From positions 1-39,286 of IMG/VR virus record IMGVR_UViG_3300006057_000001: a DNA stretch of 39,286 nucleotides. One strand, written 5' to 3'. Shown here piece by piece: positions 7,846-34,154 of the stretch (within the stretch, counting starts at the first letter, position 1; every line of letters begins with the position of its first letter). The stretch comes from a virus. The notes under the pieces were generated by a model that worked only from the letters and a program-made list of their open reading frames with translations, made no database searches and had not been told where the DNA came from. Position numbers and translations under genes: made by a program.

Positions 7846-8390
7846 AGGCGCGCCACCAGGCGGCTGGCATGGCCGGCCGCTTTGTTGTCTTCGGCAATGA
7901 CCTGGCTGCGATAGTAGTCGCGGAATTTCATCAGGTCAGCCAGCGGCGTGCGTTTCAAGTGGCGGGTACCGATGGTGTACTCCTGTTGATCTACCGTCGC
8001 GCGGCCCTCGATCACGGCTTCAATCGCATCCAGCGTGATGCGCGCATGGCTGCGGTCGTCCAGATTGGCGGCCGCGTTGTATTTCGCCAGCAGGGTGAAC
8101 TCGCCGCGATCTACCTCGAACGCTTCGCTACCGTAGGTGACCACCGCCACCCATTTGTAGTCGCCGGCAGTATAGGCGCCGCTGGTGGCGGCGGACACGG
8201 TGACCGCGAATTGGCTGCCGTCCGCACTCGCCACAATCGAAAAGTTGGCCCCCGCGGCACCGATCTTTTTAAACCAGTAAGTCAGCGTCCACAGCGTCGC
8301 TGGGTAGTCGGTCACGAGATCCTCGCGCCGCCATTGCCAGGTCAAGCCGGCGCGCTGCTCGATCGGTTCGTTGGTGGCGATAGTGGTCAT
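7842..8390 (-). CDS. gpW-like head-tail joining protein with an N-terminal beta domain, 182 aa
   Basis: The last ~65 residues (ITLDAIEAVIEG, then EYTIGTRHLKRTPLADLMKF and RDYYRSQVIAED) match the helical layout of lambda gpW, the small protein that stabilises packaged heads and prepares them for tails. Position between terminase and portal is the same as gpW. The first ~110 residues form a beta-sandwich-like domain (WTLTYWFKKIG, FSIVASADGSQFAVTVSA) absent from lambda gpW. The gene overlaps both neighbours by 4 bp. Confidence 0.75.
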   Translation of the reverse strand: MTTIATNEPIEQRAGLTWQWRREDLVTDYPATLWTLTYWFKKIGAAGANFSIVASADGSQFAVTVSAATSGAYTAGDYKWVAVVTYGSEAFEVDRGEFTLLAKYNAAANLDDRSHARITLDAIEAVIEGRATVDQQEYTIGTRHLKRTPLADLMKFRDYYRSQVIAEDNKAAGHASRLVARL

Positions 8391-10432
8391 CGACTAATAC
8401 CCGTGATCCAGTTGCGAGGTGCGCGCAGCGGTGGCGGTGTAAACGTCTGCACCGGCGCGGCATCAGTTGTGGGTGGCGCGACATCCGTCACGGCGCTGCT
8501 GTCTGCCGTGTCTGCGTCCGCGCCTTCGTTGTCTGCTGCCACTGCCGGCAGCGCAAACAGCGCCTGCTGGCGAAACCCGGTTTCCAATGCGGCCCAATGC
8601 GCATCGCGCATCAAGTGCACTTTCAGCGCGCGCCCCGCGTGCAGCGCGTAGATTTCCGCGTCGAGCACTTCGTTGCGCACGCCCTTCTTGACCTGCCACA
8701 CGCGCTTGCCGCGCTGGCCCCGCACCGGCACCTTCACTTCACTCATGAACTGGGTGAGGTAATCGGTGCGCACGTCGCGATACCAATGCACACGCCCTGG
8801 CCCGCTCCCCTCCAGCGCCAGCCGCCCAGGCCCTTTGTCGCCGAGCAGTAGATCCTTGGCGCGGTTCACGCCGACGATGTAGGTGCGTAGCCCATGTTTG
8901 CTCGCCTTGGTGTTGCGGTGGGTGCTGTCGATAGAGGCAGTCGGGCGGCGGAAAATTTCGCTGTCCGCCACGCTGCTACCCTTGATCGCCATCAGCTCGA
9001 CTCCCCGTCCTCGCCGCGTGCGCACCCAGTGATACACCGCATCGCTTGCTGTGCCGTCTCCCGCATCAATCGATACCGCCCGCACACCCAACGCCACGCC
9101 CCACGCGTGGCCATAGGTGGTGAATACCAGCGCATCGAGTGCTGCCCACACCGGATCGTTCTTATCGACACTATTGCCCTCGATTTCATCAAACAACACC
9201 AGCCAGCTTTCCTCGCCGCGCCCCCACGCGCGCAGCACGACCGCCAGGCGGTTGTGCTGCACGTCCACGCCCATGGTCAGCACCAGCCCGCCCGCCGGCA
9301 CGGTGTTGACTGGGTAATCCAGGCCGCGCATGGAGAGCGTCGCCTCATCGGCCAGCTCGCCTTTGTATTCCCAGGCACGCCCCAAGGCCGCATTCCAGAA
9401 CACGATCAGCGCTTCGAGATTGCCCTGCGCCTCTTCGTGCTTGGCGTTTAAGTAGCGCTCGACCAGCACCTGCATGCGCGACTCGTGCCAGCACGCATAC
9501 AGCTCGTTGATATACAGCCCCAGCACGCCGCGAAACGGCGCCTGCGGTTCGGCGCGCCCACGCTGCACCGCGAGATTCTTCTGCGCATCGTTCCAGCAAG
9601 AGCCGCACGCGACGCACACATACACGGCCGTCTCGGTCTTGGCGCGTCCAAAGGTCGGGTGCTCGACTTCCGCGCCATCCTGGTCCCAGCGCACTTGCTC
9701 CCATTCGAGCGCCTGGAACTCTCCGCAATCGGGACACGGCACCATCCAGCGATTGCGGTCGGACTGCAACATCTCATCTTCGATGCTCGACACGCCCTTG
9801 ATGCTGGGCGTGCCGCCAATCAGAATCTTTAGATCCCTGAACGTCTTGCCGCGCTCTTCCAGGAGCTTGATGGCGTCGCCCTGTCCCCGCAGGTTCAGGT
9901 TGCAGTCGTCCGGCTCTTCGATGATCAAGAGCTTGGCCGAAGTGGACTTCACATCGGAGATCGAATTAGATCCTACGAACTTGATGAAGCCGCCGACGAA
10001 ACTCTTGAACAGCGCCTTGATGCCCTTGGCACGGCTGCGCACCGGGATCAGCGGCGTCAGCGACGGCGTCGATTCGATCATCGGCGAGAATTTTTCGAGG
10101 TCGAAATTTCTCGCGGCGCCGTCCTTCGGAAACATGGTAATGCAACTCGCGTGGCGGATCTCCACGTTGTGCCCGAGCGTGTTGCAGATCACCGACTGCG
10201 TCCAACCGATCTGTGCCGGTTTTTGCGCGACGCCTTTCTTCACGTCGGGCTGCGACCAGCGCTCAACAAACCACTTCCAGTAGGGCGTCAGCCGAAAGCT
10301 AAAGCGCCCCTCATACGCCGACTCGACTGCCGACATGCGGCGTCGTTGTTCAGCCCACTGCGCGACCGAAATCTTCGGCGGGTTGCGAAACCCCCGGATC
10401 GTCGTCTGCAGCAGGCGCTGCGCAGAATTCAT
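8387..10432 (-). CDS. Terminase large subunit, lambda GpA family, 681 aa
   Basis: ATPase and nuclease that translocates phage DNA into the prohead and cuts it. The deviant Walker A lies near residues 68-80 (AQKPAQIGWTQS, as in GpA), Walker B near 168-176 (LLIIEEPDDC), and a Cys-rich insert has CPDCGEFQALEWEQV and VCVACGSCW. The nuclease domain starts with LTMGVDVQHNRLAV; further on are KKGVRNEVLDAEIYALHAGRA and a low-complexity Ala/Asp/Thr tail. GpA-type enzymes make cohesive (cos) ends. The start overlaps the small subunit by 83 bp. Confidence 0.95.
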   Translation of the reverse strand: MNSAQRLLQTTIRGFRNPPKISVAQWAEQRRRMSAVESAYEGRFSFRLTPYWKWFVERWSQPDVKKGVAQKPAQIGWTQSVICNTLGHNVEIRHASCITMFPKDGAARNFDLEKFSPMIESTPSLTPLIPVRSRAKGIKALFKSFVGGFIKFVGSNSISDVKSTSAKLLIIEEPDDCNLNLRGQGDAIKLLEERGKTFRDLKILIGGTPSIKGVSSIEDEMLQSDRNRWMVPCPDCGEFQALEWEQVRWDQDGAEVEHPTFGRAKTETAVYVCVACGSCWNDAQKNLAVQRGRAEPQAPFRGVLGLYINELYACWHESRMQVLVERYLNAKHEEAQGNLEALIVFWNAALGRAWEYKGELADEATLSMRGLDYPVNTVPAGGLVLTMGVDVQHNRLAVVLRAWGRGEESWLVLFDEIEGNSVDKNDPVWAALDALVFTTYGHAWGVALGVRAVSIDAGDGTASDAVYHWVRTRRGRGVELMAIKGSSVADSEIFRRPTASIDSTHRNTKASKHGLRTYIVGVNRAKDLLLGDKGPGRLALEGSGPGRVHWYRDVRTDYLTQFMSEVKVPVRGQRGKRVWQVKKGVRNEVLDAEIYALHAGRALKVHLMRDAHWAALETGFRQQALFALPAVAADNEGADADTADSSAVTDVAPPTTDAAPVQTFTPPPLRAPRNWITGISR

Positions 10433-11973: not shown

Positions 11974-13326
11974 TCATGATTGAACGACCTCAACGCGCAC
12001 CCATATGCGTTCGCGCGACTCACCGCCCACGCGCTTGCGCTGCCACAGTGGCTTATTCGGATCCAGTGGATTGCGCGCGATGCGCGCCATGATGCGCCCC
12101 ACGCGCTGCTGCTCGCCCAGCGTCCAGGCGCGTGCATCGAGGTGCAGCGCTTTGCCCAGCAGATCGGCCATGGTGGCCTGCGGTTGGCGCACGATCGACG
12201 TTTCGGTGTGGCCGTCGAGCCAATCGCGCATCATCGACTCGTAGGCGTCGCCAATGTAGCGCTCATCCTGCTCCACCTCAAACAGCGCGCGATCGCTGGC
12301 GCGCGCCCACCATTCAGTGCCGGCGCGAAATTCGCTTACCGCCTCGGCCCACAACTGATCGCGCACGCGTTTTAAGTCATCAACTTCGATTACCCCAGTC
12401 ATCACTGGCCAGTAACGCCGGTTCCCGCTTTCGTCCTTGAGATAGGCCGAGTGATTCACGGATCCTGCAAACACGCCTTGCCGCGGTATATTGACCGGCT
12501 TGCGACCATACGGGTTGCGATAGCGATCTTCCGTGCGCGTGAAAAATGCCTTACTGCGCGAGGCGTCGCTGCGGTTATAGCCATCGAGCTCGGCCAGCTC
12601 CACGCACCACATGCCGCGAATGATGGCGTTGCCGTCTGGCGTGCCGATGTCGAATGCCGCATCAGTAAACCATGGCGAAAACAGCACTTTCAGCGCAGTG
12701 GATTTCATCACACCCTGATCCCCTTCGAGGATCAAGACATTGTCCATCTTGCAGCCTGGGCGATAGGCCCGCGCCACTGCGCCCACCATCCACTTCACGG
12801 ATACCGCTTGGGTGTAATCGGGATTGGCCGCCACGCCGAAATAGGTGCCGAGCATATGCAGCAGCCGCACAGTGCCATCCCATTTGAGGCCGTCCAGATA
12901 TTCGCGCACCGCGTGATAGCGATTGCCATCGGCGGCGAGCGACACCGCCTTCATTAGCGCTTCGCTGCGCACGCTGCGCAAGGCATAGTGGTGAGCGAGC
13001 CACAATTCAAGGCGTGCATCATCCAGATCGGTCCATTCACCGATTTCGCCGCGAGGGAATGGAGGCGCCGCGCGCTTCATCACCAGTCCCGAAAATTCAT
13101 CATAGGCGATCACGTTGTGCCACGCCGCATCGTTGCGCAGGATCTGCACGATGTTATCCAGAACCGGCAGCAGCGCGCCGCTGGGAGCGCGCGCCAATGC
13201 CTCGCGCCAGCTTCCGTTAGCCGCCTTGAAATCCGCGTCCAGGGCATCATGCGCCTGCTGTAGCGGATCGTTCGGCGGCAGCGGCGTAGGCGGCGGCCCC
13301 GAACCATGTATTTTGTCGTTGGCCAC
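11974..13326 (-). CDS. VapE-type (virulence-associated E) helicase/ATPase, 450 aa
   Basis: The GTG at 13326, preceded by GAGG at 6-nt spacing, gives 450 aa; longer readings go through the previous gene. A Walker A lies at ~201-209 (EGDQGVMKS), followed by a Walker B-like WCVELAELDG (~238) and the sensor region VNIPRQGVFAGSVN then DESGNRRYWPV. This matches the VapE/DUF5906 helicase family, which unwinds DNA at initiation in phages and satellites. The N-terminal ~100 residues are probably a linker to a primase-like partner. It overlaps the upstream 209-codon gene by 80 bp and is followed by the repeat array. Confidence 0.88.
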   Translation of the reverse strand: MANDKIHGSGPPPTPLPPNDPLQQAHDALDADFKAANGSWREALARAPSGALLPVLDNIVQILRNDAAWHNVIAYDEFSGLVMKRAAPPFPRGEIGEWTDLDDARLELWLAHHYALRSVRSEALMKAVSLAADGNRYHAVREYLDGLKWDGTVRLLHMLGTYFGVAANPDYTQAVSVKWMVGAVARAYRPGCKMDNVLILEGDQGVMKSTALKVLFSPWFTDAAFDIGTPDGNAIIRGMWCVELAELDGYNRSDASRSKAFFTRTEDRYRNPYGRKPVNIPRQGVFAGSVNHSAYLKDESGNRRYWPVMTGVIEVDDLKRVRDQLWAEAVSEFRAGTEWWARASDRALFEVEQDERYIGDAYESMMRDWLDGHTETSIVRQPQATMADLLGKALHLDARAWTLGEQQRVGRIMARIARNPLDPNKPLWQRKRVGGESRERIWVRVEVVQS

Positions 13327-13876
13327 GTTTCGCCTCAATTTCGTCGGACCACCAGCGTGGCCATTGCATATGCACGCCATCATGATGGCGCGCCATATAT
13401 GCGATTTCCGCGCAATCCAGTTGTTCATGCTGCGGGATATGCACGCCGTCGCACACGGCGACCGACGCCGCCTGCAGCGCCAGCTCGCCGAATAAATCGT
13501 AAATCACGCCCCAGGTCGATTGCGCATCCGGCTGAGCGGGTGGGTGCACGCGTAAAGCACCATGCAGATCAATCACCCGCACCGCGCAGCCGCGAACACA
13601 CCCAAAATCAAAAACGCCTGGAGCATATTCGCGCGGGCGCAGCGCCAGCATTGGCACTCCGACTTCACGCAGCCAGCGTGATTCATAAGGCCGCGCGCTA
13701 CGGCCATCCTGCAACCACACCGAGCGCTCCAGCTTCATCCGCGTTGACGCCTCGCGCCAGTCATCACCGAACAGCACATCCACATTGAGGGGATGCCATC
13801 CCGCCCGTCGATTATCGAGTAGCGCTTTGCCGAACGCGGGCAGCTTGAGCTTCGTCGGTCGTGGCTTCGTGTTCAA
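13247..13876 (-). CDS. Hypothetical protein upstream of the helicase, 209 aa
   Basis: The start is probably the TTG at 13876, overlapping the preceding stop as TTGA; no ATG occurs before codon ~47. The protein has a basic N-terminus (TKPRPTKLKLPAFGKALLD) and a central region with VPMLALRPREYAPG and RVIDLHGALRVHPPA. Its C-terminal part ends WPRWWSDEIEAKRG. I do not recognise the family. Its fixed position directly before, and overlapping, a VapE helicase suggests a replication role such as a primase or loader, but no primase motif is evident. Confidence 0.6.
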   Translation of the reverse strand: MNTKPRPTKLKLPAFGKALLDNRRAGWHPLNVDVLFGDDWREASTRMKLERSVWLQDGRSARPYESRWLREVGVPMLALRPREYAPGVFDFGCVRGCAVRVIDLHGALRVHPPAQPDAQSTWGVIYDLFGELALQAASVAVCDGVHIPQHEQLDCAEIAYMARHHDGVHMQWPRWWSDEIEAKRGQRQNTWFGAAAYAAAAERSATAGA

Positions 13877-15911: not shown

Positions 15912-16127
15912 TCACGCTGCCGCCTCTTGCTGGTCGGCGGCCGGCGATTCATCCACAGGGCACCGTTCACCTGCTAATTTGAGGAGCGCATCACCCAGCA
16001 CATAGCCCGGCTGTTGCTTGCCATTGCGGATGCGATTGATCGACGGTTGGCTGCTACCAACCTTCGCCGCAATCCCTGATTCGGTCATTCCCGACCGGAT
16101 CAATTTCTCTATGATGTCCTTGAACAT
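15912..16127 (-). CDS. Cro-like repressor, 71 aa
   Basis: I take the ATG at 16127, which lies immediately after the predicted start of transcription; the frame could extend to 16148, but that would lie inside the promoter. Residues ~15-40 form a helix-turn-helix (MTESGIAAKVGSSQPSINRI, then RNGKQQPG). The C-terminus is short and acidic (ESPAADQQEAAA). Divergent from the cI-like gene, it is the first gene of the leftward early transcript, as lambda cro is of the rightward one. It likely binds the same operators that flank its promoter. Confidence 0.85.
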   Translation of the reverse strand: MFKDIIEKLIRSGMTESGIAAKVGSSQPSINRIRNGKQQPGYVLGDALLKLAGERCPVDESPAADQQEAAA

Positions 16128-16136
16128 GCGCGATAC

Positions 16137-16181
16137 TTTATCATACACGCATGTATTATTGTCAAGTCTTCATGCGTGTAT
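16137..16181 (-). promoter_or_regulatory. Leftward early promoter with two operators
   Basis: On the minus strand TTGACA (16160-16165), a 17-bp spacer and GATAAA (16137-16142) form a good sigma-70 promoter. The 14-bp operator ATACATGCGTGTAT (16143-16156, minus) fills the spacer; a second, 12/14-match copy lies at 16168-16181 upstream of the -35 in inverted orientation. The predicted transcription start, about 16130, is only a few bases from the Cro-like ATG, so that mRNA may be nearly leaderless. Confidence 0.75.
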
Positions 16182-16216
16182 TTCCCAACCTTTTGATTTT
16201 AAGGGAATATACGCAT

Positions 16217-16570
16217 ATGAATTGGATCCTAGTACGCAGCAACATCAAGCATCTGATGGAAGTTCAGGGCCTAAATGACACGACCCTGGCGGCCCTGTGT
16301 GGAGTTCCGCAGCCTACAATTTGGCGGTTTCTAACCGGCGTTACCAATTCGATGCTACTCGACAATCTGAAAGCGATTGCAGATAAATTAGACTCAACAG
16401 TTGGCGAATTAATAGGGGAAACCCCGCTTGAGATGAATGAGGATAACCGCCGCATGATCAAGGCGATGCAACGCATGCCTAAATACACAGTGCGCGGCTT
16501 CATTGCAGCAGCCGAAGCATTTCAGGAGGAGGGGAATGAACCTCCAAAAAAAACACCGATCTCACGCTAA
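16217..16570 (+). CDS. Short cI-like repressor, 117 aa
   Basis: The ATG at 16217 follows an AAGGGA site. The N-terminal ~65 residues are an HTH_3-type domain (NIKHLMEVQGLNDTTLAAL, then GVPQPTIWRFLTG). The rest (LEMNEDNRRMIKAMQRMPKY, FIAAAEAFQEEG) is a helical dimerisation-like tail and lacks the S24 peptidase domain of LexA-type repressors. It should hold the prophage by binding the palindromic operators of the two early promoters. Without the self-cleaving domain, induction must work another way, for example through an antirepressor or the Cro-like protein. Confidence 0.83.
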   Translation: MNWILVRSNIKHLMEVQGLNDTTLAALCGVPQPTIWRFLTGVTNSMLLDNLKAIADKLDSTVGELIGETPLEMNEDNRRMIKAMQRMPKYTVRGFIAAAEAFQEEGNEPPKKTPISR

Positions 16571-18233: not shown

Positions 18234-19931
18234 ATGAACGCTCCTCTGGCCGCCACTGCACTGGCCACCGCACTCGATGTAACCCTCGAACACATCCCGC
18301 TCGATAACATCCGCGTTTCACCGTTGCCGGTGCAGACGTTGCGACGCGCGCGCTTTGATCCCGCGGCGCTGCTAGAACTCGCCGCCAGCATTAAAGCCCT
18401 GGGCGTGGCACAACCCATTGTCGTGCGTCCGGTGCCGGTGCAAGGTCATGTGCGCTTTGAGATCGTCGCCGGCGAGCGCCGCTGGATTGCCGCCGATCGC
18501 GCGGGCCTCGACCACGTTCCCGCCATCGTGCGCGAACTCACCGACGAACAAGCGCTCGAACTGCAGCTCGTGGAAAATCTGCAGCGCGAGGGCCTACACC
18601 CGTTAGAAGAGGGCGCGGGCTACAAACAATTGATGGATCTCAAACATGCCGATGCCGAAACCATCGGCGCGCTAGTGGGCAAAAGCCGCAGTTATGTGTA
18701 CTCGAGAACCAAGCTTCTCGACCTGTGCCCCGCTGGGCGCGAGGCGCTGCAGGCTGGCACACTCGATGCCAGCCAGGCGTTGCTCATCGCGCGCCTGGGC
18801 GGCGACAAGCTGCAACGTAAGGCACTAGAGCGCCTGAACCATAGCGCACTCAGCTACCAGGCCGCGCTGCGCATCCTGCGTAATGATTTCATGGTGCCGC
18901 TCGACACCGCGCCCTTCGATCACGACGATGCCACGCTGGAAACCAAACAGCACGAGCCGCTGCCCGCATGCAGCACCTGCCCCAGCCGCAGCGGCAATGA
19001 TGCCGAGTTAAACGTAGCGCTTAACGATCCACACATCTGCACCGACAAGCCCTGTTTTGACATCAAGGCACGCATCTTCTGGCAGCGGCAACGCCAGACA
19101 CTCGAAGCCAGCGGCGCCAAAATCCTCAGCGGCGATCAGGCCGCCAAGCTGGCGCCCGGCCGCTATGACGGCGCGGTGAAAAACGGCTATTTGAATCTGA
19201 ATGTCGAGGCCGAGGAGCTCGATTGGCCGGACGATGAGGAACCCACACAAGCCAAAGGCGAAACCACTGAAGCGTTTGAAGAGCGCTTGAATGCATGGGA
19301 AGTACACGTGAGCCCCACTCGCCCCACTTATCGCGCGCTGCTCGGCGACAACCCGCCCGGCACCGTGCTGGTCGAAGGTAAAGGCGCCGCGCTGCACGCC
19401 CTGCTGCCGTTGGCCGATGCGGTCAAGCTGTTAAAGGCCAAAGGCCACACGCCACCCAAATATTGGAGCAGCTCGCCGCAAAAGCCCTTGTTTGATGACC
19501 CCGCCGCCACCGCTAAGGCCACCGCAGAGCGCGCGCGTGAGGAAGAGCAGATGAAGGTAGAAGAAGAATACCGCGCGCGGCTCTTTAAGGCCATCTGGCA
19601 AAAATGGAAAGGTCCACTCAAGCGGCCGGATCTGGAGCGCATCGCGGGCATCATTAAAGAATACGACGGCAACGACGACGTCCTTGACGACGTGGTTCCC
19701 GACGGCTGGAACTTCGTCAAAGCCACCGAGCCCGAGCTGCTGCGCTACATCGCCTGCGTTTTACTCGTTGGTGACCTCGACGTGTATCACCATACCAAGC
19801 CCGCGCAACTGCTCGAAGTCGCGCAACGCCTGAACATCGACGCCAAGAAAATCCGCGCGCAGGTAATCGCAGATTTAAAGCCCACGTCCGTCGCACCCGA
19901 AGACAAACCCAAGCCCGCGGCGAAGAAATAA
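18234..19931 (+). CDS. ParB/RepB/Spo0J-like protein, 565 aa
   Basis: An AAGGAG site lies before the ATG at 18234. The N-terminal ParB/Spo0J nuclease-like domain shows FDPAALLELAASIKALGVAQ, GERRWIAADRAGL and the ENLQREGLHPLEEG motif (~113-126). The central HTH is at ~142-166 (AETIGALVGKSRSYVYSRTK). A Cys-rich part (ACSTCPSRSG, then ICTDKPCF, ~245-272) and a long C-terminus follow, as in phage/plasmid 'PRTRC-like' ParB proteins. It may bind DNA as a regulator or modify host DNA contacts, or act in partition if the phage can replicate as an episome; no ParA gene is present in the window. Confidence 0.85.
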   Translation: MNAPLAATALATALDVTLEHIPLDNIRVSPLPVQTLRRARFDPAALLELAASIKALGVAQPIVVRPVPVQGHVRFEIVAGERRWIAADRAGLDHVPAIVRELTDEQALELQLVENLQREGLHPLEEGAGYKQLMDLKHADAETIGALVGKSRSYVYSRTKLLDLCPAGREALQAGTLDASQALLIARLGGDKLQRKALERLNHSALSYQAALRILRNDFMVPLDTAPFDHDDATLETKQHEPLPACSTCPSRSGNDAELNVALNDPHICTDKPCFDIKARIFWQRQRQTLEASGAKILSGDQAAKLAPGRYDGAVKNGYLNLNVEAEELDWPDDEEPTQAKGETTEAFEERLNAWEVHVSPTRPTYRALLGDNPPGTVLVEGKGAALHALLPLADAVKLLKAKGHTPPKYWSSSPQKPLFDDPAATAKATAERAREEEQMKVEEEYRARLFKAIWQKWKGPLKRPDLERIAGIIKEYDGNDDVLDDVVPDGWNFVKATEPELLRYIACVLLVGDLDVYHHTKPAQLLEVAQRLNIDAKKIRAQVIADLKPTSVAPEDKPKPAAKK

Positions 19932-19953: not shown

Positions 19954-20481
19954 ATGCCGACCGCAGCAAAAAAAACCAAGCCTATCACCATCCCCACCAC
20001 CATCGGCGCGCCCTTCGCCGGCGGCTTCTACGCCGGCAACATCTTTGATGCCGGAAAGCCCTACGCCCTCATTGTCGCGCCAAAGGACGGCGGCGAACAA
20101 GCCGAGATCGCCTGGAGCCTCACTGATAAAACCGTCAAGGACGCGTTGAGCTACAGCAACGGCCTCGCCAACACCGTCGCCATGGCCAAGGCTGGTAGCG
20201 CCCTGGCGAAGTGGGCGCGCGCCATCGAGATCGACAGCCACGGTGACTGGTATCTACCGAGCCGCCTAGAAGCGCTGGTGCTGTTCGGCGAACTGCGCCA
20301 GGTCAAAGCATTCGACGCCGGCAAGCCGGAGGGATTTGAAAAGTCTTGGTACTGGACCTCTACGCAGTACGCCGGCGAGGCCGGTTACGCCTGGTGTCAG
20401 CATTTCAGCTACGGCACCCAGAACTACACCCGCAAGAACTACACGTTGCGAGCCAGAGCCGTCCGCAGAATCGCCATTTAG
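19954..20481 (+). CDS. DGR target gene 1: DUF1566/C-type-lectin-like variable protein, 175 aa
   Basis: AGGAG precedes the ATG at 19954. The N-terminal half has a short beta-rich domain (GAPFAGGFYAGNIFDAG). The C-terminal half has the DUF1566/Lcl (C-type lectin fold) pattern WYLPSRLEALVLFGEL then SWYWTSTQYAG. Its last ~36 residues are encoded by VR1 (20362-20469), where A-directed changes fall on residues around GYAWCQHFSYGTQNYTRKN, the expected ligand face. No signal peptide or membrane helix is seen. The variable protein may bind a ligand that is not yet known. It pairs with a paralogue at 20516 and a downstream Avd/RT cassette. Confidence 0.9.
   Translation: MPTAAKKTKPITIPTTIGAPFAGGFYAGNIFDAGKPYALIVAPKDGGEQAEIAWSLTDKTVKDALSYSNGLANTVAMAKAGSALAKWARAIEIDSHGDWYLPSRLEALVLFGELRQVKAFDAGKPEGFEKSWYWTSTQYAGEAGYAWCQHFSYGTQNYTRKNYTLRARAVRRIAI
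20362..20469 (+). repeat. Variable repeat VR1
   Basis: These 108 bp align without gaps to the TR (21564-21671). All 9 differences are at TR adenines: tat>tgt, aat>cat, aac>agc, aac>tac, aac>acc, aac>tac, aac>acc, cac>cgc and aac>tac. The conserved 3' part (acgttgcgagccagagcc, then gtccgcaga) is the probable initiation-of-mutagenic-homing (IMH) region; VR1 diverges from TR right after it. Confidence 0.96.
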
Positions 20482-20515
20482 CCATTCATCCATTCAGTCA
20501 TTTAGGGGTAAAACT

Positions 20516-21013
20516 ATGAAGCAAGAAACGATTACGCTGCCGCTCGGGGAGCTGCTTAAGCATGCCACACCCGAAGCGCTCACGCGCGAGCTGCTCGCGC
20601 GCATCATCACGCCCGCCGTGCTCGACACGACAGCCACACCGAGGATCGGCGCACCGTGGCCCGGCGGCGGTATCTACGCCGGCACGTTGCGCGGCGAGAA
20701 TGGCGCACCTGATTATCACCTGATCGTGCATGGCGAAGATCGCGACGACATCAACTACAACGACGCCATGGCGTGGGCACAGCAACTGGCGACCGTTGAG
20801 CACCTTGACTGGTCGCTGCCGCGTCGTGCCGAACAAGCGGTGATGTACGGCAACGTGCCTGAGCTGTTCGAGAAAGTCTGTTATTGGTCCCGTGAGCAGT
20901 ACGCCGGCGAGGCCGGTTACGCCTGGTCTCAGTAGTTCCGCTACGGCTACCAGTACTACGGCCGCAAGGGCCTCACGTTGCGAGCCAGAGCCGTCCGCAG
21001 ATTAGCCATTTAA
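20516..21013 (+). pseudogene. DGR target gene 2: paralogue with an in-frame amber stop in VR2
   Basis: The gene starts at ATG 20516 after GGGGT. It has the same plan as target 1 (GAPWPGGGIYAGTLRG, WSLPRRAEQAVMYGNV, VCYWSREQYAG), and its frame runs to TAA at 21011-21013, giving ~165 codons. A TAG at 20933-20935, inside VR2, truncates it to 139 aa. The amber codon corresponds to TR codon AAT. Adenine mutagenesis of AAT can only give NNT, so the stop needs the T-to-G at 20935 as well. Truncated copy, suppressible amber, or consensus error in a mixed population are all possible. Without that change the codon would be TAT (Tyr). Confidence 0.9.
20896..21004 (+). repeat. Variable repeat VR2
   Basis: These 109 bp align without gaps to the TR (21566-21674). 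There are 16 differences: 15 are at TR adenines (to C, G or T) and one is T>G at 20935, which makes TAG. VR2 keeps TR identity slightly further than VR1 at the 3' end (cgcagatta). It is more heavily mutated than VR1, suggesting more rounds, or an independent event, of retrohoming. Confidence 0.96.
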
Positions 21014-21040
21014 CCATTCAGTAATTCAGTTTCCCCCGTC

Positions 21041-21397
21041 ATGGCACTGCATTCCAACCTACCCATTTACCGCACGGTGCGCGAGCTGACCCAGCTCGCG
21101 ATCACGGCTACGCGCAACATGCCCCGCGACTATAAGAAGACGCTGGGCGAGCGACTGGTCGGCGAGTTGCTCGAAATCTCCATGCGGGTGCTGCGTGCGA
21201 ACATTGCGCGCGATAAGCGCCCGCACCTGGATGAGCTGCTCGAACGCAAGGAAATGGCGGACCAGCTTATACGCCTCGCCGTCGATCTGCGCTGCATCAG
21301 CCAGGGGCAGTATGCCCGGCTGATCGAGCTGGTCGATAGCGTGGGCAAGCAGGCCCACGGTTGGCGCAGGCATTCCGCAGCTTCGCCTGCTGCATGA
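21041..21397 (+). CDS. avd: Avd-like accessory variability determinant, 118 aa
   Basis: A four-helix-bundle-type protein with strong basic helices. It starts MALHSNLPIYRTVRELTQLA, continues MPRDYKKTLGERLVGELLEI and LERKEMADQLIRLAVDLRCI, and ends with a helix before a short Ala tail. These short helical proteins bind the RT and template RNA and are needed for mutagenic homing (Bordetella phage Avd family, 'four helix bundle protein'). Its stop overlaps ATG 21394 (ATGA), so the RT frame appears coupled to it. Position between the targets and the TR/RT is the usual DGR order. Confidence 0.88.
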   Translation: MALHSNLPIYRTVRELTQLAITATRNMPRDYKKTLGERLVGELLEISMRVLRANIARDKRPHLDELLERKEMADQLIRLAVDLRCISQGQYARLIELVDSVGKQAHGWRRHSAASPAA

Positions 21398-22785
21398 CCG
21401 TCAAGGCGATCATGCCCGCGCGAAAATCTAATCTGGTCGTGCCGCTGGCCACAGCCAAGGCCACCGACAAGCGCACACGGGATACCGCGGACTGCTCCCC
21501 GCCCGGTCCCCGCGCAGTTTCCCGACTGGCCATCCGGTCGGGTGACGTAGATCGCACGAATGGACGCAGTACGCCGGCGAGGCCGGTTACGCCTGGTATC
21601 AGAATTTCAACAACGGCAACCAGAACAACAACCACAAGAACAACACGTTGCGAGCCAGAGCCGTCCGCAGATTACACCGCACGCCCTGACGGGTATTCTT
21701 TTGAGCAACTGGTCGCGGCCGAGATCGACTGCCGCCGCACCAAACGCAACACGGCCGCCGCGCTTGCCTGGGAAATCGAGCGCGAGCGCAATCTCATACG
21801 TCTGCACGACGAACTGGTCGAAGGCACCTATCGTCCGGGCCCCTCGATTTGCTTCGTCATCACTCGCCCCAAGACGCGCGAGGTGTGGGCCGCCGACTAT
21901 CGCGATCGCATCGTGCACCACCTGCTTTACAAACGTATCGGCCCGAGCTTCGAGCGCGCATTCATCCCCGACAGTTGCGCCTGCATTCCCGGGCGAGGCA
22001 CGCTATACGCCGCGAACCGACTCGAAAGCAAGGTGCGAAGCATCACTCAGAACTGGCAGCGGCCAGCGTTTTATCTGAAACTGGATCTCGCCAATTTTTT
22101 CGTCACTATCGACAAGCGTATTCTTCGCGATCAGCTCGCGTTGCGCATCAGTGAACCGTGGTGGCTGCAGCTCACCGAAGAAGTGCTATTTCACGATCCG
22201 CGCATCGACGCACGCATCCAGAGTACGCCGGCGCTGATGGCGCGCGTGCCCCCGCATAAGAGCTTACTGAATCAACCAGGACATCTGGGGCTGCCCATCG
22301 GCAATTTATCGTCGCAGTTTTTTGCAAACGTCTATCTCGATGCGCTGGACCATTACGTCAAGCACACGCTGCGCTGCCGGCATTACATCCGCTATGTTGA
22401 TGATTTCATCCTGCTCGACGAATCGCCGCAGCAGTTGAACGCCTGGCACGATGCGATTGCGGCATTCCTACCCGGGCGCTTAAATGTGCGGCTGAATCCG
22501 ACTAAGACCATTCTGCAGCCGATCGCGCGCGGTATCGACTTCGTCGGCCAGATGATCAAGCCCTGGCGCCGCACGCTGCGGCGGCGCACGTTTAACGAGC
22601 TGCTCGGCCGCATCGAAGCGGCCGAAGTAGGCGACGTCTATCAGACGGCCAACAGCTACTTCGGCCTGCTGCGCCAGACCACCCACAGCCACCACGATCG
22701 CGCGCGCCTGGCGAACTTGGTGCGGCGGCTCGGGTTGGCGGTAAATCACACGCTCACAAAATCTTATCGGAAAAAAGGGACATGA
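21394..22785 (+). CDS. DGR reverse transcriptase, up to 463 aa
   Basis: The catalytic signature IRYVDDFIL (YVDD at residues 334-337) is present with FYLKLDLANFF (D231). IGNLSSQ lies at 302-308; this (I/V/L)GxxxSQ form is typical of DGR RTs, where other RTs have QGxxxSP. ATG 21394 overlaps the avd stop (ATGA). The frame then passes through the TR (Thr/Arg-rich residues ~58-94) before the RT fold starts near GYSFEQLVAAE. Later ATGs are rare until residue ~288, so this start is the only conventional one. The enzyme copies TR RNA with adenine errors into VR1 and VR2. Its stop overlaps the next gene (ATGA). Confidence 0.95.
   Translation: MTVKAIMPARKSNLVVPLATAKATDKRTRDTADCSPPGPRAVSRLAIRSGDVDRTNGRSTPARPVTPGIRISTTATRTTTTRTTRCEPEPSADYTARPDGYSFEQLVAAEIDCRRTKRNTAAALAWEIERERNLIRLHDELVEGTYRPGPSICFVITRPKTREVWAADYRDRIVHHLLYKRIGPSFERAFIPDSCACIPGRGTLYAANRLESKVRSITQNWQRPAFYLKLDLANFFVTIDKRILRDQLALRISEPWWLQLTEEVLFHDPRIDARIQSTPALMARVPPHKSLLNQPGHLGLPIGNLSSQFFANVYLDALDHYVKHTLRCRHYIRYVDDFILLDESPQQLNAWHDAIAAFLPGRLNVRLNPTKTILQPIARGIDFVGQMIKPWRRTLRRRTFNELLGRIEAAEVGDVYQTANSYFGLLRQTTHSHHDRARLANLVRRLGLAVNHTLTKSYRKKGT
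21564..21674 (+). repeat. Template repeat (TR) of the DGR
   Basis: Up to 111 bp, of which 108 align to VR1 and 109 to VR2. The core (21598-21648) is rich in AAY codons when read in the target frame (seven AAC, one AAT, one CAC), the design that cannot make stops by adenine mutation. It lies 166 bp after the Avd stop and within the probable RT reading frame, but in another frame from the targets. The conserved 3' block matches both VRs exactly. Confidence 0.96.
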
Positions 22786-23036
22786 GCACCGAAGTGCCCA
22801 GAGTGACCTCGCCGGCAACTATCAGCGAAATCCTAACCCGCGAGGATCTCGCCGCGCTCACCGGCTATACCAAGCCAGCCTACCAGGCACGCTGGCTGCA
22901 GCGTCACGGCTGGACCTACGCTGATTCGCGCGATGGGCCGAAGGTGCTACGCGCCTATCGCGATCAGCGCATGGGCATGGCCGCCACTACCACCAGCGGC
23001 GGCACGTGGAAACCGGACTTTTCCGTTTTAGGCTAA
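22782..23036 (+). CDS. DUF4224-like, excisionase-type protein, 84 aa
   Basis: The ATG at 22782 overlaps the RT stop. The middle matches DUF4224 (SEILTREDLAALTGYTKPAY, then QARWLQRHGWTYADSRDG), a small helix-turn-helix family often encoded directly before phage integrases and thought to act as an excisionase or directionality factor. The C-terminus is polar (TTTSGGTWKPDF). It lies 4 bp before the integrase gene. Annotation rests on sequence pattern and location. Confidence 0.85.
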   Translation: MSTEVPRVTSPATISEILTREDLAALTGYTKPAYQARWLQRHGWTYADSRDGPKVLRAYRDQRMGMAATTTSGGTWKPDFSVLG

Positions 23037-23040
23037 TATC

Positions 23041-24039
23041 ATGAGCATGAAAAAAGACTATCCACGGCTGCGCCAGCAAGGACCGCGCTACTATTATGAC
23101 CACGGCGGGAAGCCGCGTAAGTGGGAGCCGTTGGGTAAGGACTGGAATCGCGTGCTTGCCCGATACAATCAACTTGAGGGCTGCGCGCAGCAAGCGGAAG
23201 GCACGATCGGCTGGCTTATCGCCAAGTTCCTGGCCACTCGGCAGGGCCTTGCCGATAACACCATGAAAAGCTACAGGAAATCAGCGGACATAGATTCTCT
23301 GGTGTTCGGCACTTGCCCCATCAAGGAATTGAAACGGGGTCACGTCTTGGATTTTGTTGACGAGTACACACGCCTGCATGGATCTCCGCATATGGCGCGA
23401 AATGCCGCGCTGTTCCTCAAAACCGTATGCGCCCACGCCCTTGACCGCGACTGGATAGAAGCAAACCCATTGGCGCGCATGAAGCTGAAAGGCGAAGCAC
23501 ATCGGAAGCGGTATCTGTCGGATGGCGAATTTCTGGTGATCCGCGACAAGCTGAAGCCGGTTTACCAGGTCGCCGCTGATCTGGCGTACCTGCTCGGGCT
23601 GAGGGTTTCTGGAGTATGTGCGCTGCGTTGGCAGCACATCAAGGATGATGTCTTGAGCTTCCATCCACCAAAATCGAAGAAGCCCATCAGCTACCGCCTC
23701 ACCGATGAGGTTAAAGCCGTGCTGGAGCGCGCCAGAACGCTGCCCGGCAACGTTCGCGGCCTGACGGTGATTTGCGCCCGTACCGGTTCCCCCATGCCCG
23801 AATATAGCGTGTCCAAAGCCTGGAGCTATGCCGCCAAGCAGGCCGGGATAGTTGATTGCCGCTTTCACGATATCCGCGCGAAATCAGCTAGCGATGATGC
23901 AGACACCGCTCAGGGTAGGCTCGGCCATTCCAACAGCCGCACCACCGAACTTTATTTGCGAAAACCGGTGGTGGTTTCGCCGATCAGAAACGTCAAAACG
24001 GAGAGGAACTCTACGTTTCAGACCAAAAAAGCCTTATAA
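23041..24039 (+). CDS. int: Tyrosine integrase, 332 aa
   Basis: Tyrosine recombinase catalytic residues are visible: R188 (LLGLRVSGV), H276 and R279 (FHDIRAKSAS), H296 (LGHSNSRTT) and Y305 (ELYLRK). The N-terminal arm-binding part starts with YPRLRQQGPRYYYDHGGKPR, and the core-binding helices include ADNTMKSYRKSADID. It integrates and, with a directionality factor, excises the phage. Its 3' end faces the candidate attP region. The catalytic-domain pattern resembles the phage HK022/P4-type branches without a firm assignment. Confidence 0.95.
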   Translation: MSMKKDYPRLRQQGPRYYYDHGGKPRKWEPLGKDWNRVLARYNQLEGCAQQAEGTIGWLIAKFLATRQGLADNTMKSYRKSADIDSLVFGTCPIKELKRGHVLDFVDEYTRLHGSPHMARNAALFLKTVCAHALDRDWIEANPLARMKLKGEAHRKRYLSDGEFLVIRDKLKPVYQVAADLAYLLGLRVSGVCALRWQHIKDDVLSFHPPKSKKPISYRLTDEVKAVLERARTLPGNVRGLTVICARTGSPMPEYSVSKAWSYAAKQAGIVDCRFHDIRAKSASDDADTAQGRLGHSNSRTTELYLRKPVVVSPIRNVKTERNSTFQTKKAL

Positions 24040-26992: not shown

Positions 26993-27697
26993 TCAGGGAT
27001 AGGTGAATGCCGATGAGGCCGGCGTGTAGTTTGATGTGTAATATGCGAAACCACTATTCAATCTGAATTCATCAATATTTCCGTCAACCCCGCTGCTTAA
27101 TCCGGCCTCGCCCGCCGCGCCGATGACCATAGCTGCGGTATTGGAATAAATAGCCGCCGAAGAAGTCCCCAAAGACGTTACAACTCCATCCAGGAAACCA
27201 TAGAAATTATTCCCTGAACGAGTCAATGCAATCGCGTACCACGTCGCCGCACTTAAAGTTCCACTATGCATAGCCACGCCATTGAACATATCAAACGTCG
27301 ATCCGTTCGATGAGCAATAAAATCTAAGCGTGTCGTTGTCGAGATAGATGATCCAACCCTTATTGGTCCCCGTCTTACCGCAAACGTACCCGGCCTGAGG
27401 GACAATGCGAGGCCGGAAACGCAGCTCAACAGAAAGATCACTAGAAACCAAATTGAAAGGTGCACTGGTATCCGCCGTGATGCTGTCGCCAACTCCATCT
27501 CCGTATAGTGATCCAGTGCCAAAGACCTTTTGCGCTGTAGTTATTCCGGCACTGCCGTGACATGTCCACGCAGTTAAGCCCACTTCATCTGTGATTACGC
27601 TTGATCCGTCTGCGCCGCCGAAGTGCAACAGAGATAAAAGTGAACCGCCTCCGCCCCCGCTGCCTGCGCCCAGCAACAAGCCCAGCGGACCTGTCAT
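26993..27697 (-). CDS. Lectin/LamG-like (concanavalin A-like) tail accessory protein, 234 aa
   Basis: After a Gly-rich N-terminus (LLLGAGSGGGGGSLLSLLHF) there is one jelly-roll domain of ~200 residues. Strand motifs such as LSVELRFRPRIVP, GWIIYLDNDTLRFYC, WYAIALTRSGNNFYGFLDG and VDGNIDEFRLNSGFA are typical of Laminin_G_3/concanavalin-like folds. Such proteins bind sugars; in a tail-lysis position they are likely host-recognition or adhesion proteins. It overlaps the previous gene by ATGA. AT content is slightly higher than in surrounding genes, suggesting exchange. Confidence 0.8.
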   Translation of the reverse strand: MTGPLGLLLGAGSGGGGGSLLSLLHFGGADGSSVITDEVGLTAWTCHGSAGITTAQKVFGTGSLYGDGVGDSITADTSAPFNLVSSDLSVELRFRPRIVPQAGYVCGKTGTNKGWIIYLDNDTLRFYCSSNGSTFDMFNGVAMHSGTLSAATWYAIALTRSGNNFYGFLDGVVTSLGTSSAAIYSNTAAMVIGAAGEAGLSSGVDGNIDEFRLNSGFAYYTSNYTPASSAFTYP

Positions 27698-28988: not shown

Positions 28989-31900
28989 TTAAGCGGCCAT
29001 GACTAGCGGATATCCGCGCCCCACCGTCGTGCTGCGCTGGTACGCCTTGGCATAGATCGTGTCGCCCGGTATGAGGCCATCCGCTGTTTGTTGGGCGGCG
29101 GTGTAGGGCGTGGTAGGTGTCGTCAAGCCGCTGAACGTGTGTACCACCGTGGTATAGGAGCTGCTGCTGTAGATTTCCACGTCGTATAGTTCGATATCCT
29201 CGCCCAGCGGCACGTTGATACCCAGGGTGCCGGACACGCGTGTAGTTAACCTGGTGCGGCGAATGAAGCTGATGGTGGCGTTGTTGCTGGTGTCGCGCAG
29301 GATTTGCGGGTAGTAGGGCGAGAACGGTTTCAAACCGACGGCGTTATCGACAAATGGCAGCGGCGTAGCCGAACTTAGCGCGCGGCTCTTGGTGACTCCT
29401 CTAATGTAACGGGTGGCGCCGATATCCGCGTTGGTCGCCGCCACACGGCGCAACCCAGCGGTGCGCAGCAGCACGGCGCGCTCGCCGGCCACATGCCCGG
29501 TCATGGCCCACTCGGTACCGCGTCCGCCGCGCAATAATCCGCTCAATATATATTCGCCGGCACTGACCAGGGTGGCGGTGCGAAACTGGATGATCTCGCT
29601 GCCGATGAGCATGGCGTTTACGCTGAGGCTTGCGATCACGGCGGCATAGGTGCTGCTCGACAGCGTACCGGCGCCCAGGTTCACTGTGACGGTGTTCATC
29701 TCATCGAACACGCGCGGGCCGCTCCAGTCGCCCAGGATGGTGCTGCAACTGCCAAATACGGCGGACTCATCCACTGTCGTTTGCAGCCCGTAGGTGACGT
29801 CGTCGGTGCTGGAGAACACCGCAGCACCCTGCCAGGGCGTGGTGCTGCCCTTGGCGGCGACGTAGTAGCCGGCGTCGTTGTCGGCGTCCTGCAGGATGGG
29901 AATGTCCATCAGCCGTAGCGCCGTGTCGCCGATGGCCGCAACGGTGGTGGTGCTGGTGTAATCGTCCGCCGTGGTGCCGCTGGTAATCAATGCGGTGGCG
30001 TCGTCGATCACGGCGCGATAGGTCAGCAGCGGGTAGCTGTCGGTTTTTTCCACCAGGCGCAAGGTGAACGTGCTGCCGTCCGGCCCAGTGACCACCACGC
30101 GGTCGGTCGGCTCGTACGCGCAGTAATCGCCGAGCAGTGCAATGGTGGTGCCCACGCTGCCGGCGACGCGATCGAGCGCCATGGTTTCGACCACGCCTTG
30201 AGCGCGCGCGGCGGTGAGGCCCAGTGCCATGGTGCGTGATTCGACCGTCTCACTCGTAGCGGTGACGAGCCGGTCGCTCATCACCGTGCCAGGCTGATAG
30301 TCGTTGTCCAAGTTGACGAAACTTAAACTGATGTGCGCGGGGATTTCCAGATCGTTGCCCTGGCGCAGTGCCAGCGGTTCGGGTTGCTCGCCGCCCATGC
30401 TCGCGCCGAGGTCGAGATAAGGTACGCTGCCCACGGTGGCGGCGCCGCGCGGCTTGAAATAGATTTTGTCGGATTGCACCGACTCAAAATAAAAGGCGGC
30501 CTCTAACATTTCAATCACCGAGCGGCCGGATGAAATCTGATCCCATGCGAGGCTGTCCACCTTGTCGGTGATGGTCGAGAGCGCGGTAACATCGATCTGG
30601 CCGGCGGTAACGCCGCAGCGCAAACAGATATCGCTCACCACGCTGGCCACAGTTGGCGAGGCGACAGTGACGCGCGTAAGGTCGAGCGCGATGTTGGTCA
30701 TGACATCTGCGGATGCCAGCGTTGATGAAACCGCAGTGAACACGCCGCCGCCACAGGCCACTCGCCGCCAGTTACCTGTCGCAGCCGCGAGCGTTGTCCA
30801 AGTAACGCCACCATCAAGAGAATACATAGAGATATTCGACGCCACTGCCATCACCACACCGTTGCCCGCCGAAACACCTAACCATGTATCCGTGGTCGCA
30901 GGCGTGCGCGAGGTCCACGTGACGCCGCTATCGGAAGAGGTCATCACGTAATGCGCTCCACTGCCTACAGCGACATAATTGCCAGACGCATCATCGAAGC
31001 ATACTTTTTGCCATGTGCCGGTAGGAACCCCCGCGCACGCCGTCCACGTAACACCCGCATCATCAGAATACATTGCAGCGTTTGTACCCACGGCAACAAC
31101 GCGGGTCGTATGTGCGCAGCACCCGTTCCACGATACTGCGTCCTGCACTGCGCCATGCCGCTCTGTCCAACTGCCCCGCACTTCAGAATCTGCCGGCGAG
31201 GTAAATACTTCGCCGCCTCCAGCCGCGTAATACCCACCGACGGCAACGAACGTGCCTATGTGCGGGCTGAAACAGACATCTTTCAAATCAACAGTCAGGT
31301 TGGGGTCAGCGGTCACGGATTGCGTATGCCACGTTATCCCATCGGACGACCACTCAGTTGCGGTTGAGTTGCCATATACGCCACCTACGGCCACAACATG
31401 CCAGAAGCCGCAAGCAACCGCTTGCATATCATTCGAAAGGGTCTTGCGCAGCGTCCACGCAGATCCATCACTGTTGGAAGTCATGATACCGCCAGCTCCG
31501 CCATTGGCGCCGACCGCCACAAACATATTGCCGTACGCGTAACAAACCCCATTCCACCCAACAGAGGCATCGCCAGTGTGCGTGACCCACGCCGTAGGCG
31601 CACTACTCGCCGTCCCGTCGGCCACCACCTCGAAATTCAGATTGCGGATCTGGCCCGACGTGCCGAGTTTCCAGCCCTGAATGAATACGCTTGAACGCCC
31701 GCGAAGCGCCACGGCATTGGTGGCGCCGACCGCTGCCTCATAGGTTGGATCCGGCGTCTGGCTCGAACTGCCGGAATAGAATGTGATGCGATCCCACCGC
31801 CCGGTGTCGGCGCTCGCGGCGAGTGTGCCAAGGCTGGCATCGTCCGCCGCGCTCCAGATCAGCGTGCCATTTTCCCAGATGCGCCGGATCCCGATGCATT

Positions 31901-32276
31901 CGTTATCGGCGAGCCCAAACCATACATCCATCTGGTAGGTGATATTTTCGGTAAAGGTCTCCCCGCCGCCACCTCCGCCTTTGCCGCCACCGCCGCCGCT
32001 CACCGTCCAGGTGGTGATGGGTTGTAGATCAGAGTGCCACCAATCCTGTGCCGCCACGCGCGCCCTGCCACGGATGTAGGGGATGCACTGGCCGTAGTCG
32101 GTGCCGGTAACATGCAGACTGGTGAGTTGATCCTGGACTTTGTAGTCGTTGGGCTTTTTCGGCGGCGCGATGACCGACTGCAGGCCCGAACCGATGGAGT
32201 AACCCAGGGCCGCGCCCTGCGGCGATTCGGTGATGATGCCGCCGATGATGGCGCCAACGATGCCACCGATACTCAT
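28989..32276 (-). CDS. Tail tip/host-specificity protein (gp15-like) with Asp-box insert, 1095 aa
   Basis: The N-terminus (GGIVGAIIGGIITESPQGAA, LTSLHVTGTDYGQCIPYIRG) and C-terminus (SVNAMLIGSEIIQFRTATLV, YILSGLLRGGRGTEWAM) match the large tail tip protein of gene-transfer-agent-type tails, gp15/J equivalent. Between residues ~235 and ~520 there is an insert of six or more short repeats with the Asp-box pattern S.D.G.TW (SDDAGVTWTAC, SSDSGVTWTSR, SLDGGVTWTTL, SSDGITWHTQ), typical of a beta-propeller. The insert may bind glycans or receptors. It overlaps the NlpC gene by ATGA. Confidence 0.88.
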   Translation of the reverse strand: MSIGGIVGAIIGGIITESPQGAALGYSIGSGLQSVIAPPKKPNDYKVQDQLTSLHVTGTDYGQCIPYIRGRARVAAQDWWHSDLQPITTWTVSGGGGGKGGGGGGETFTENITYQMDVWFGLADNECIGIRRIWENGTLIWSAADDASLGTLAASADTGRWDRITFYSGSSSQTPDPTYEAAVGATNAVALRGRSSVFIQGWKLGTSGQIRNLNFEVVADGTASSAPTAWVTHTGDASVGWNGVCYAYGNMFVAVGANGGAGGIMTSNSDGSAWTLRKTLSNDMQAVACGFWHVVAVGGVYGNSTATEWSSDGITWHTQSVTADPNLTVDLKDVCFSPHIGTFVAVGGYYAAGGGEVFTSPADSEVRGSWTERHGAVQDAVSWNGCCAHTTRVVAVGTNAAMYSDDAGVTWTACAGVPTGTWQKVCFDDASGNYVAVGSGAHYVMTSSDSGVTWTSRTPATTDTWLGVSAGNGVVMAVASNISMYSLDGGVTWTTLAAATGNWRRVACGGGVFTAVSSTLASADVMTNIALDLTRVTVASPTVASVVSDICLRCGVTAGQIDVTALSTITDKVDSLAWDQISSGRSVIEMLEAAFYFESVQSDKIYFKPRGAATVGSVPYLDLGASMGGEQPEPLALRQGNDLEIPAHISLSFVNLDNDYQPGTVMSDRLVTATSETVESRTMALGLTAARAQGVVETMALDRVAGSVGTTIALLGDYCAYEPTDRVVVTGPDGSTFTLRLVEKTDSYPLLTYRAVIDDATALITSGTTADDYTSTTTVAAIGDTALRLMDIPILQDADNDAGYYVAAKGSTTPWQGAAVFSSTDDVTYGLQTTVDESAVFGSCSTILGDWSGPRVFDEMNTVTVNLGAGTLSSSTYAAVIASLSVNAMLIGSEIIQFRTATLVSAGEYILSGLLRGGRGTEWAMTGHVAGERAVLLRTAGLRRVAATNADIGATRYIRGVTKSRALSSATPLPFVDNAVGLKPFSPYYPQILRDTSNNATISFIRRTRLTTRVSGTLGINVPLGEDIELYDVEIYSSSSYTTVVHTFSGLTTPTTPYTAAQQTADGLIPGDTIYAKAYQRSTTVGRGYPLVMAA

Positions 32277-33582: not shown

Positions 33583-34154
33583 ACGCGCACCTCGATGATC
33601 GGGATCGCACTCCAATCGTAGACCGCATAGCTCATCCACACCGGCAGCATCTTGTCGGTGTTAAAGCGCACCGGAAAATCGAACTCGCCGGTCCAGCTCG
33701 TAGGTGAGGCGCCGGAGACTTTGGTGATGATGCCGGTGGTGGTATCCAGCGTGTAGCTACCCCCGCCGGCAATCACCGCGCCGGCGATCGGCTTTTGAAT
33801 TTTGCGCGCCATGCTGATGGCGCCGATGGTGTAGGTTTTATACATCTGCCAGGTCGTGCCCGACAGCGCGACCAACGTGCCCTGGCTGCCGGTGGCGGTG
33901 TAGTCGTTGTAGTTCTTAAACCGAAAGCCGTGGTGCATGCCGGCCACCGAATGGAAAAAGGCCAGCAGGTCATCGAGATCGGATTGCGATTTGACGCCAT
34001 GCGAGACATCGCCCTCGTGTAGCGGCATGCTCCAGTTTTGATTGTTGGCCTCGGCGCCGCCAATGTTGCGCGCCACGGTCGTCGAATACACCGGACCGAA
34101 CTTGCTGCCCACGCTAATCGCCTCCGGAAAGCGAGGGGTTTCCTTGAAACTCAT
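33579..34154 (-). CDS. Distal tail protein, DUF2460 family, 191 aa
   Basis: Motifs of DUF2460 are visible: FKETPRFPEAISVGSKFGPV, YSTTVARNIGGAEANNQNW, LLAFFHSVAGMHHGFRFKNY and GIITKVSG, then FDFPVRFNTDKM. This family forms the distal tail ring in GTA-type siphoviruses. Its start overlaps the tape measure stop as TGATG. It is followed by the DUF2163 hub, as in those clusters. Confidence 0.9.
   Translation of the reverse strand: MSFKETPRFPEAISVGSKFGPVYSTTVARNIGGAEANNQNWSMPLHEGDVSHGVKSQSDLDDLLAFFHSVAGMHHGFRFKNYNDYTATGSQGTLVALSGTTWQMYKTYTIGAISMARKIQKPIAGAVIAGGGSYTLDTTTGIITKVSGASPTSWTGEFDFPVRFNTDKMLPVWMSYAVYDWSAIPIIEVRV

Follow-up and report, generated by a model that had tools for sequence, protein, structure and literature searches.

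The viral sequence studied here, IMG/VR virus record IMGVR_UViG_3300006057_000001 (39,286 bases, hereafter the window), contains a cassette that, taken as a whole, is very probably a canonical Avd-dependent diversity-generating retroelement (DGR) with one template and two recipient genes. All parts of the cassette lie on the plus strand. The first recipient gene, target 1 (19954-20481), encodes a 175-residue standalone Lcl_C (DUF1566) protein (45.3 bits), and its variable repeat (VR1, 20362-20469) ends 9 nt upstream of the stop codon, at the C-terminus of the protein. The second recipient, target 2 (20516-21013), carries VR2 (20896-21004) and is followed by a gene for a 118-residue Avd protein (21041-21397), the structured RNA RT-15 (21381-21566), the template repeat (TR, 21564-21674) and a frame for a DGR reverse transcriptase (RT, 21394-22785).

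Repeats, proteins and RNA of the cassette

VR1 differs from the TR at nine sites, all of which are TR adenines (35 adenines in 108 positions; hypergeometric p=1.8e-5), while VR2 differs at 16 sites, 15 of them adenines and one a T>G change (p=4.1e-8). Together, 24 of the 25 differences fall on TR adenines, and our recount agrees with the initial annotation, which had been made without database searches. The 3' end common to the VRs and the TR is unmutated. A scan of the whole window, on both strands, found no further VR.

The RT and Avd assignments of the initial annotation were borne out by database searches. The Avd protein matches bAvd (PF22296, 50.6 bits, above the cut-off) and phrog_3206 (Avd protein of DGR), and it scores 48.6 bits against NF033474, under that model's cut-off of 80. 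The RT matches RVT_1 and phrog_1423, with a conserved core at 21691-22785. Its best match in the PDB is 8ub7 (1.6e-34), labelled only "Reverse transcriptase", which we take to be the RT of the DGR of Bordetella phage BPP-1; group II RTs come next, from 5e-9. The RT also contains IGNLSSQ, which fits the DGR motif (I/V/L)GxxxSQ given in the relevant passages of Schillinger 2012 (PMC3521204). A retron, a group II intron or a chance repeat would account for the RVT_1 match and for weak NCBIfam matches to group II, retron and Drt models, but with 8ub7 ahead by 25 orders of magnitude and VRs that are adenine-specific, the probability of this alternative is negligible. As identities of the RT itself, retron, group II intron and Drt were rejected, the NCBIfam matches being far below their cut-offs and the TR/VR pattern also refuting them.

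The RT-15 RNA is the 5' neighbour of the TR. It matches RF03018 over its full length (149.3 bits, gathering threshold 82; E=9.8e-36), overlaps the end of avd and has its 3' end where the TR starts. The first ATG of the RT frame overlaps the avd stop codon (ATGA). Possible starts of the RT core (ATG, GTG or TTG) occur only at 21439 or further upstream, with none between 21439 and the core, so that with an ordinary start codon the RT frame crosses most of RT-15 and the TR. A TR that overlaps the 5' end of the RT is a known DGR class, named "group 3" in the relevant passages of the literature.

The structure of target 1 was predicted with AlphaFold2 from an alignment with 54 relatives (predicted local distance difference test score 96, predicted template modelling score 0.90). 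The only significant PDB match in Foldseek was the C-terminal domain of Legionella Lcl (8q4e, E=6.6e-5; template modelling score 0.69 by target length), followed by C-type lectins, and the model thus confidently predicts an Lcl/C-type-lectin domain. The DGR-variable residues are grouped at positions 137-164, in the last strands and loops. Neither target of the window has a hydrophobic N-terminus by a simple hydrophobicity scale, and the statement of the initial annotation that the targets lack signal peptides and lie outside the tail module holds as far as can be told from sequence.

Related loci and recent rewriting of both variable repeats

Searches for relatives yielded 80 viral and 80 genome loci with RTs 60-74% identical to that of the window, mostly from Burkholderiales, Pseudomonas and related groups. 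Because some prophages occur in both sets, counts refer to loci and not to independent elements. Including the window there are 161 loci, some of them on cut contigs; two VRs were found in 119, three to five in 21, one in 13 and none in eight. Two targets are thus the norm in this DGR lineage (119/161 loci). In 290 distinct TR/VR pairs, 3,696 of 8,656 A sites were changed (42.7%) compared with 55 of 19,837 non-A sites (0.28%), the latter figure being somewhat low because the scan penalised non-A mismatches.

Comparisons between near-identical loci are free of that bias. Loci L005 and L006 show 19 differences in the 0.8 kb upstream of the RT, all of them in a VR at TR adenines. L055 and L080, which have identical TRs, show 32 differences, all at TR adenines of the VRs (13 in VR1 and 19 in VR2) and none elsewhere in the 1.7 kb upstream, while L057 and L059 show 32 differences at VR A sites and 20 other differences. 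The pairs L055/L100 and L080/L100 were excluded as independent pairs because L100, a 3.3-kb contig that joins the VR1 of L055 to the VR2 of L080, could be a chimera made in assembly. Near-identical relatives thus differ at VR adenine sites, from which it follows that the lineage is active, and since the changes occur in both repeats, VR1 and VR2 have both been rewritten, recently and independently, in relatives of the window's phage.

Other features of the cassette recur as well. RT-15 was present in 11 of the 12 relatives checked, and the exception, L115, is a locus in which the TR was likewise not found. This constant pairing with the RT lineage suggests that RT-15 forms the 5' domain of the template RNA. 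At one locus, L009, RT-15 is not directly before the RT but about 1.1 kb further upstream, so that there may be an insertion between TR and RT. No stop codon interrupts the RT frame across the TR in 115 of 153 relatives; in many Pseudomonas relatives the frame is stopped at -81 and an ATG follows at -75 or -72 inside the TR, where the RT start codon is likely to lie. Hairpins with a stem of at least 7 occur in 48 of 278 VR 3' flanks of relatives, compared with 1.6% in shuffles; they are mostly located 25-35 nt past the VR, in Pseudomonas often after the second VR (CCGGCCGC..GCGGCCGG). The reliable targets of the relatives are short single-domain proteins, mostly of 110-220 residues; wrong-frame "long targets" that came from automatic start calls (L027, L087, L125 and L053_2) were left out of the evidence.

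The initial annotation had described two small DUF1566 targets. This stands for target 1, while the assembled product of target 2 is truncated by a nonsense codon at 139 of 165 residues, and the read-through product matches Lcl_C at 32.5 bits, just under the cut-off of 34.9. The in-frame TAG (20933-20935, plus strand) lies inside VR2 and replaces the TR codon AAT by an A>T change plus the single non-A change of VR2, T>G. Within this TR, the codons that adenine mutagenesis could turn into stops are one AAG and two AGA, none of them at the TAG site. T>G is the commonest non-A change in the pooled TR/VR pairs (21 of 55). Premature stops are rare in the lineage (4 of 317 VRs, the window's VR2 included), and the one in L073 is missing from its near-identical sister L075, for which reason the TAG in VR2 could also be an error. 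It may be real or stem from assembly or sequencing, and an error in the sequence is a fair possibility. As assembled, the target 2 allele would be null, either a genuine dead end, open to replacement by further homing, or an error in the sequence. That the element is decaying in this genome, with target 2 inactivated and the VRs fixed, would agree with the TAG and with the rarity of such stops in relatives; but the RT, Avd, TR and RT-15 are all intact, the frame of target 1 is uninterrupted, and the stop depends on one T>G that, as in L073/L075, may be a sequencing error. We regard decay as improbable.

Operon context, orphan alleles and the role of the targets

The cassette belongs to a plus-strand operon that runs from a CI-like repressor through ParB, the targets, avd and RT to the excisionase and integrase genes. 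Its first gene is a CI-like helix-turn-helix (HTH) repressor (16151-16570; HTH_26, 23.5 bits, cut-off 22), and a Cro-like HTH protein is encoded divergently on the minus strand (15912-16148; HTH_3, E=2e-4, just below the cut-off). The upstream neighbour of the cassette is a ParB-like protein gene (18234-19931; ParB_N, 7e-26, and HTH_ParB); downstream follow an excisionase (xis, 22782-23036; DUF4224 match and phrog_4764, 6e-19) and a tyrosine integrase (int, 23041-24039; Phage_integrase, 1e-14), both on the plus strand. The gene order ParB, target 1, target 2, avd, TR, RT, DUF4224 and int agrees with the initial annotation. The A-specific TR/VR differences, bAvd, 8ub7, IGNLSSQ, RT-15, xis and int support its interpretation of the cassette as a two-VR DGR in the early/integration operon of a temperate phage, here the one that leads from repressor to integrase. 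What it had lacked is RT-15 before the TR, the TAG in VR2, the RT frame through the TR and the match of DUF4224 to an excisionase. A scan for promoters and terminators inside the cassette gave sites no more numerous than in shuffles.

The structural genes are on the opposite strand. To the left lie the capsid (4320-6347), portal (6325-7845) and terminase (8387-10432) genes of a head and packaging module and a VapE-like helicase/primase gene (11974-13428), and to the right a tail module with genes for a tail-tip protein (28989-32276), a tape measure (34154-36292) and a tail tube (37833-39044), all on the minus strand. The two ends of the contig fall between the head and tail modules and the sequence is unbroken past int, and the window therefore looks like an unintegrated genome opened elsewhere than at its attachment site. 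The tail-tip protein resembles tails of the gene-transfer-agent type (Rcc01698-like), the nearest phages being Rhodobacter phages at 28%, and the true receptor-binding protein may be a Laminin_G_3 protein encoded at 26993-27697.

Of 94 relatives with a full flank, 54 have int downstream on the strand of the cassette, as counted with an iterated profile. The same holds for the cultured phages Magia, QDWS, LPPA56 and Cruim01, where placement in a repressor-to-integrase operon opposite the structural genes recurs. In the relatives' flanks, no structural protein of the window and a single one of Magia had a match, but such genes diverge fast and the test is therefore weak. Third targets close to a repressor gene, in L119, L152, L074 and Magia, fit the same pattern. 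The placement suggests, if lambda pL is taken as a model, that the cassette is expressed as a delayed-early unit.

Target 1 also has relatives, by tblastn, among D3-like temperate phages and Wroclawvirus jumbo phages. In PA5oct (NC_071039, 37081-37572; L171, 5902-6393) the allele has a VR-like zone whose departures from the TR of phage Haboob fall mainly at adenines, and further such orphan alleles, with a well conserved backbone, are found in RT-less phages (L173 and L176-L184). PA5oct, Paride, PMG1, phi_D3 and U7 gave no RVT_1 match, while the positive control, Haboob, did. A 138-base stretch with the Haboob TR has one match per jumbo or D3-type genome and two in U7, at the target genes. The PA5oct gene differs from this TR at 15 of 32 A sites compared with 1 of 68 other sites (p=3e-8); the numbers of differences at A and other sites are 16 and 5 in Ettore, 15 and 4 in D3, 16 and 2 in U7, and 20 and 13 in MIJ3. 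Four distinct jumbo-phage alleles differ by 18-33% in the VR-like zone compared with 4-8% in the rest of the gene, and because these pairwise differences lie partly off A sites, drift or other templates also contributed. Adenine-biased alleles in genomes that have no RT imply that DGR-made alleles moved in or were rewritten in trans. The orphan homologue follows cI in PMG1, and in the jumbo phages it is surrounded by small unannotated open reading frames, with no named virion gene next to it. DGR-type lectin (FGS) domains are absent from the results of a published survey of 224 jumbo phages (PMC7824862), and a literature search, which was not exhaustive, found no earlier report of the orphan alleles.

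From the BPP-1 system it can be expected that RT and Avd bind an RNA that contains both RT-15 and the TR, that this RNA is copied with random misincorporation opposite template adenines, and that the cDNA would then take the place of the 3' end of either target gene. This would rewrite up to about 20 residues of a C-type-lectin-like loop, with nine AAY codons and about 10^10.6 variants.

The presence of such alleles in RT-less phages favours an early role inside the infected cell over display on the tail. As a tentative reading, with slightly less than even odds, the targets are soluble cytoplasmic binders, made early in infection from the repressor-to-integrase operon, which would engage variable proteins of the host or of competitor phages, in counter-defence or exclusion, and are not tail-tip adhesins. 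We rank this role first, tail display second and a lysogen-specific function third. It is possible, though we hold the extension more loosely, that the lineage as a whole diversifies soluble early intracellular binders and that their alleles spread as orphans, captured or rewritten in trans in lysogens, to DGR-less phages including lytic jumbo phages. Three points weigh against the overall account of the cassette and its targets: no BPP-1-like hairpin (stem of at least 7) was found after the VRs of the window, int lies within 6 kb in only 57% of the full-flank relatives, and a gene outside the tail module can still supply a virion protein.

One alternative is that the targets are receptor-binding proteins on the virion, like Mtd in BPP-1, with the DGR switching tropism from outside the tail module. 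Viral DGR targets of clades 1, 4 and 6 are mostly tail proteins (PMC8144416), and in BFVD target 1 has some structural matches to portions of tail-fibre or collagen-like proteins. However, targets in this lineage are mostly single domains of 110-220 residues without a part for tail attachment, they sit in the repressor-integrase operon of phages with differing tails, and their homologues in RT-less jumbo phages are not adjacent to annotated virion genes. Tail display is therefore rather unlikely in our judgement. A little less probable still is a function in the lysogen, where the targets would be expressed together with the repressor and would serve in superinfection exclusion or in interaction with the host. 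The operon does begin at a CI-like gene, and third targets come directly after S24 repressors in L119, L152 and L074 and near the immunity repressor in Magia, but homologues with diversified VRs are present in lytic jumbo phages and the window's targets have no hydrophobic N-terminus. Because Paride replicates lytically (PMC10761892), a function confined to lysogeny is unlikely.

As a DGR the cassette is ordinary, with a layout typical of a widespread lineage; less usual are the position of its targets among early and lysogeny genes and the occurrence of already diversified alleles in phages that lack the machinery, lytic jumbo phages included. The DGRs of phages are commonly interpreted as tropism switches, and many of the related cassettes sit with repressor, recombination and integrase genes and act on small free-standing proteins. 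If these targets do work inside the cell as early binders, the phages would be diversifying them, much as antibodies are diversified, against proteins of the host or of rivals. In the orphan alleles there is a direct handle on this, in that the lytic jumbo phages carry a natural set of variants on a conserved backbone.

Comparison with known systems

The Lcl protein of Legionella is a surface collagen-like adhesin, while target 1 appears, from its sequence, to be a lone domain without an evident signal peptide. The DGR of phage BPP-1 (mtd, avd, TR, brt) shares with the window the order target, avd, TR and RT, an Avd protein, A-specific variation in the VR and a related RT. It differs in having a single target, a tail-fibre protein according to the relevant passages of PMC3521204 and PMC3091744, where the two targets of the window are small DUF1566 proteins encoded away from the tail module, and the TR of the window, unlike that of BPP-1, overlaps the RT frame. 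One TR with two VRs in separate open reading frames is described for Pseudomonas fluorescens WH6 (PMC3521204, Table 2) and Vibrio cholerae 1311-69 (PMC6642488), and DUF1566 is the commonest DGR target domain according to the relevant parts of the same two papers. The passages that deal with these two elements do not give a repressor-to-integrase operon context such as that of the window. In phage Cruim01, RT-15 (Rfam RF03018) is annotated at the same place as the full-length match between avd and TR in the window.

A close counterpart is the DGR of Burkholderia phage Magia (NC_070954), which has an RT 68% identical to that of the window. As in the window, small targets with a C-type-lectin fold, Avd and RT are followed by xis and int on one strand, and the RecT operon is a shared feature too. 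Magia differs in having a further annotated target near the immunity repressor, a contractile tail and no annotated ParB, and its genes had already been labelled as possible DGR targets by the depositors. The DGR of the window adds a member to a known type, since multi-VR DGRs with DUF1566 targets and the arrangement in Magia have already been described.

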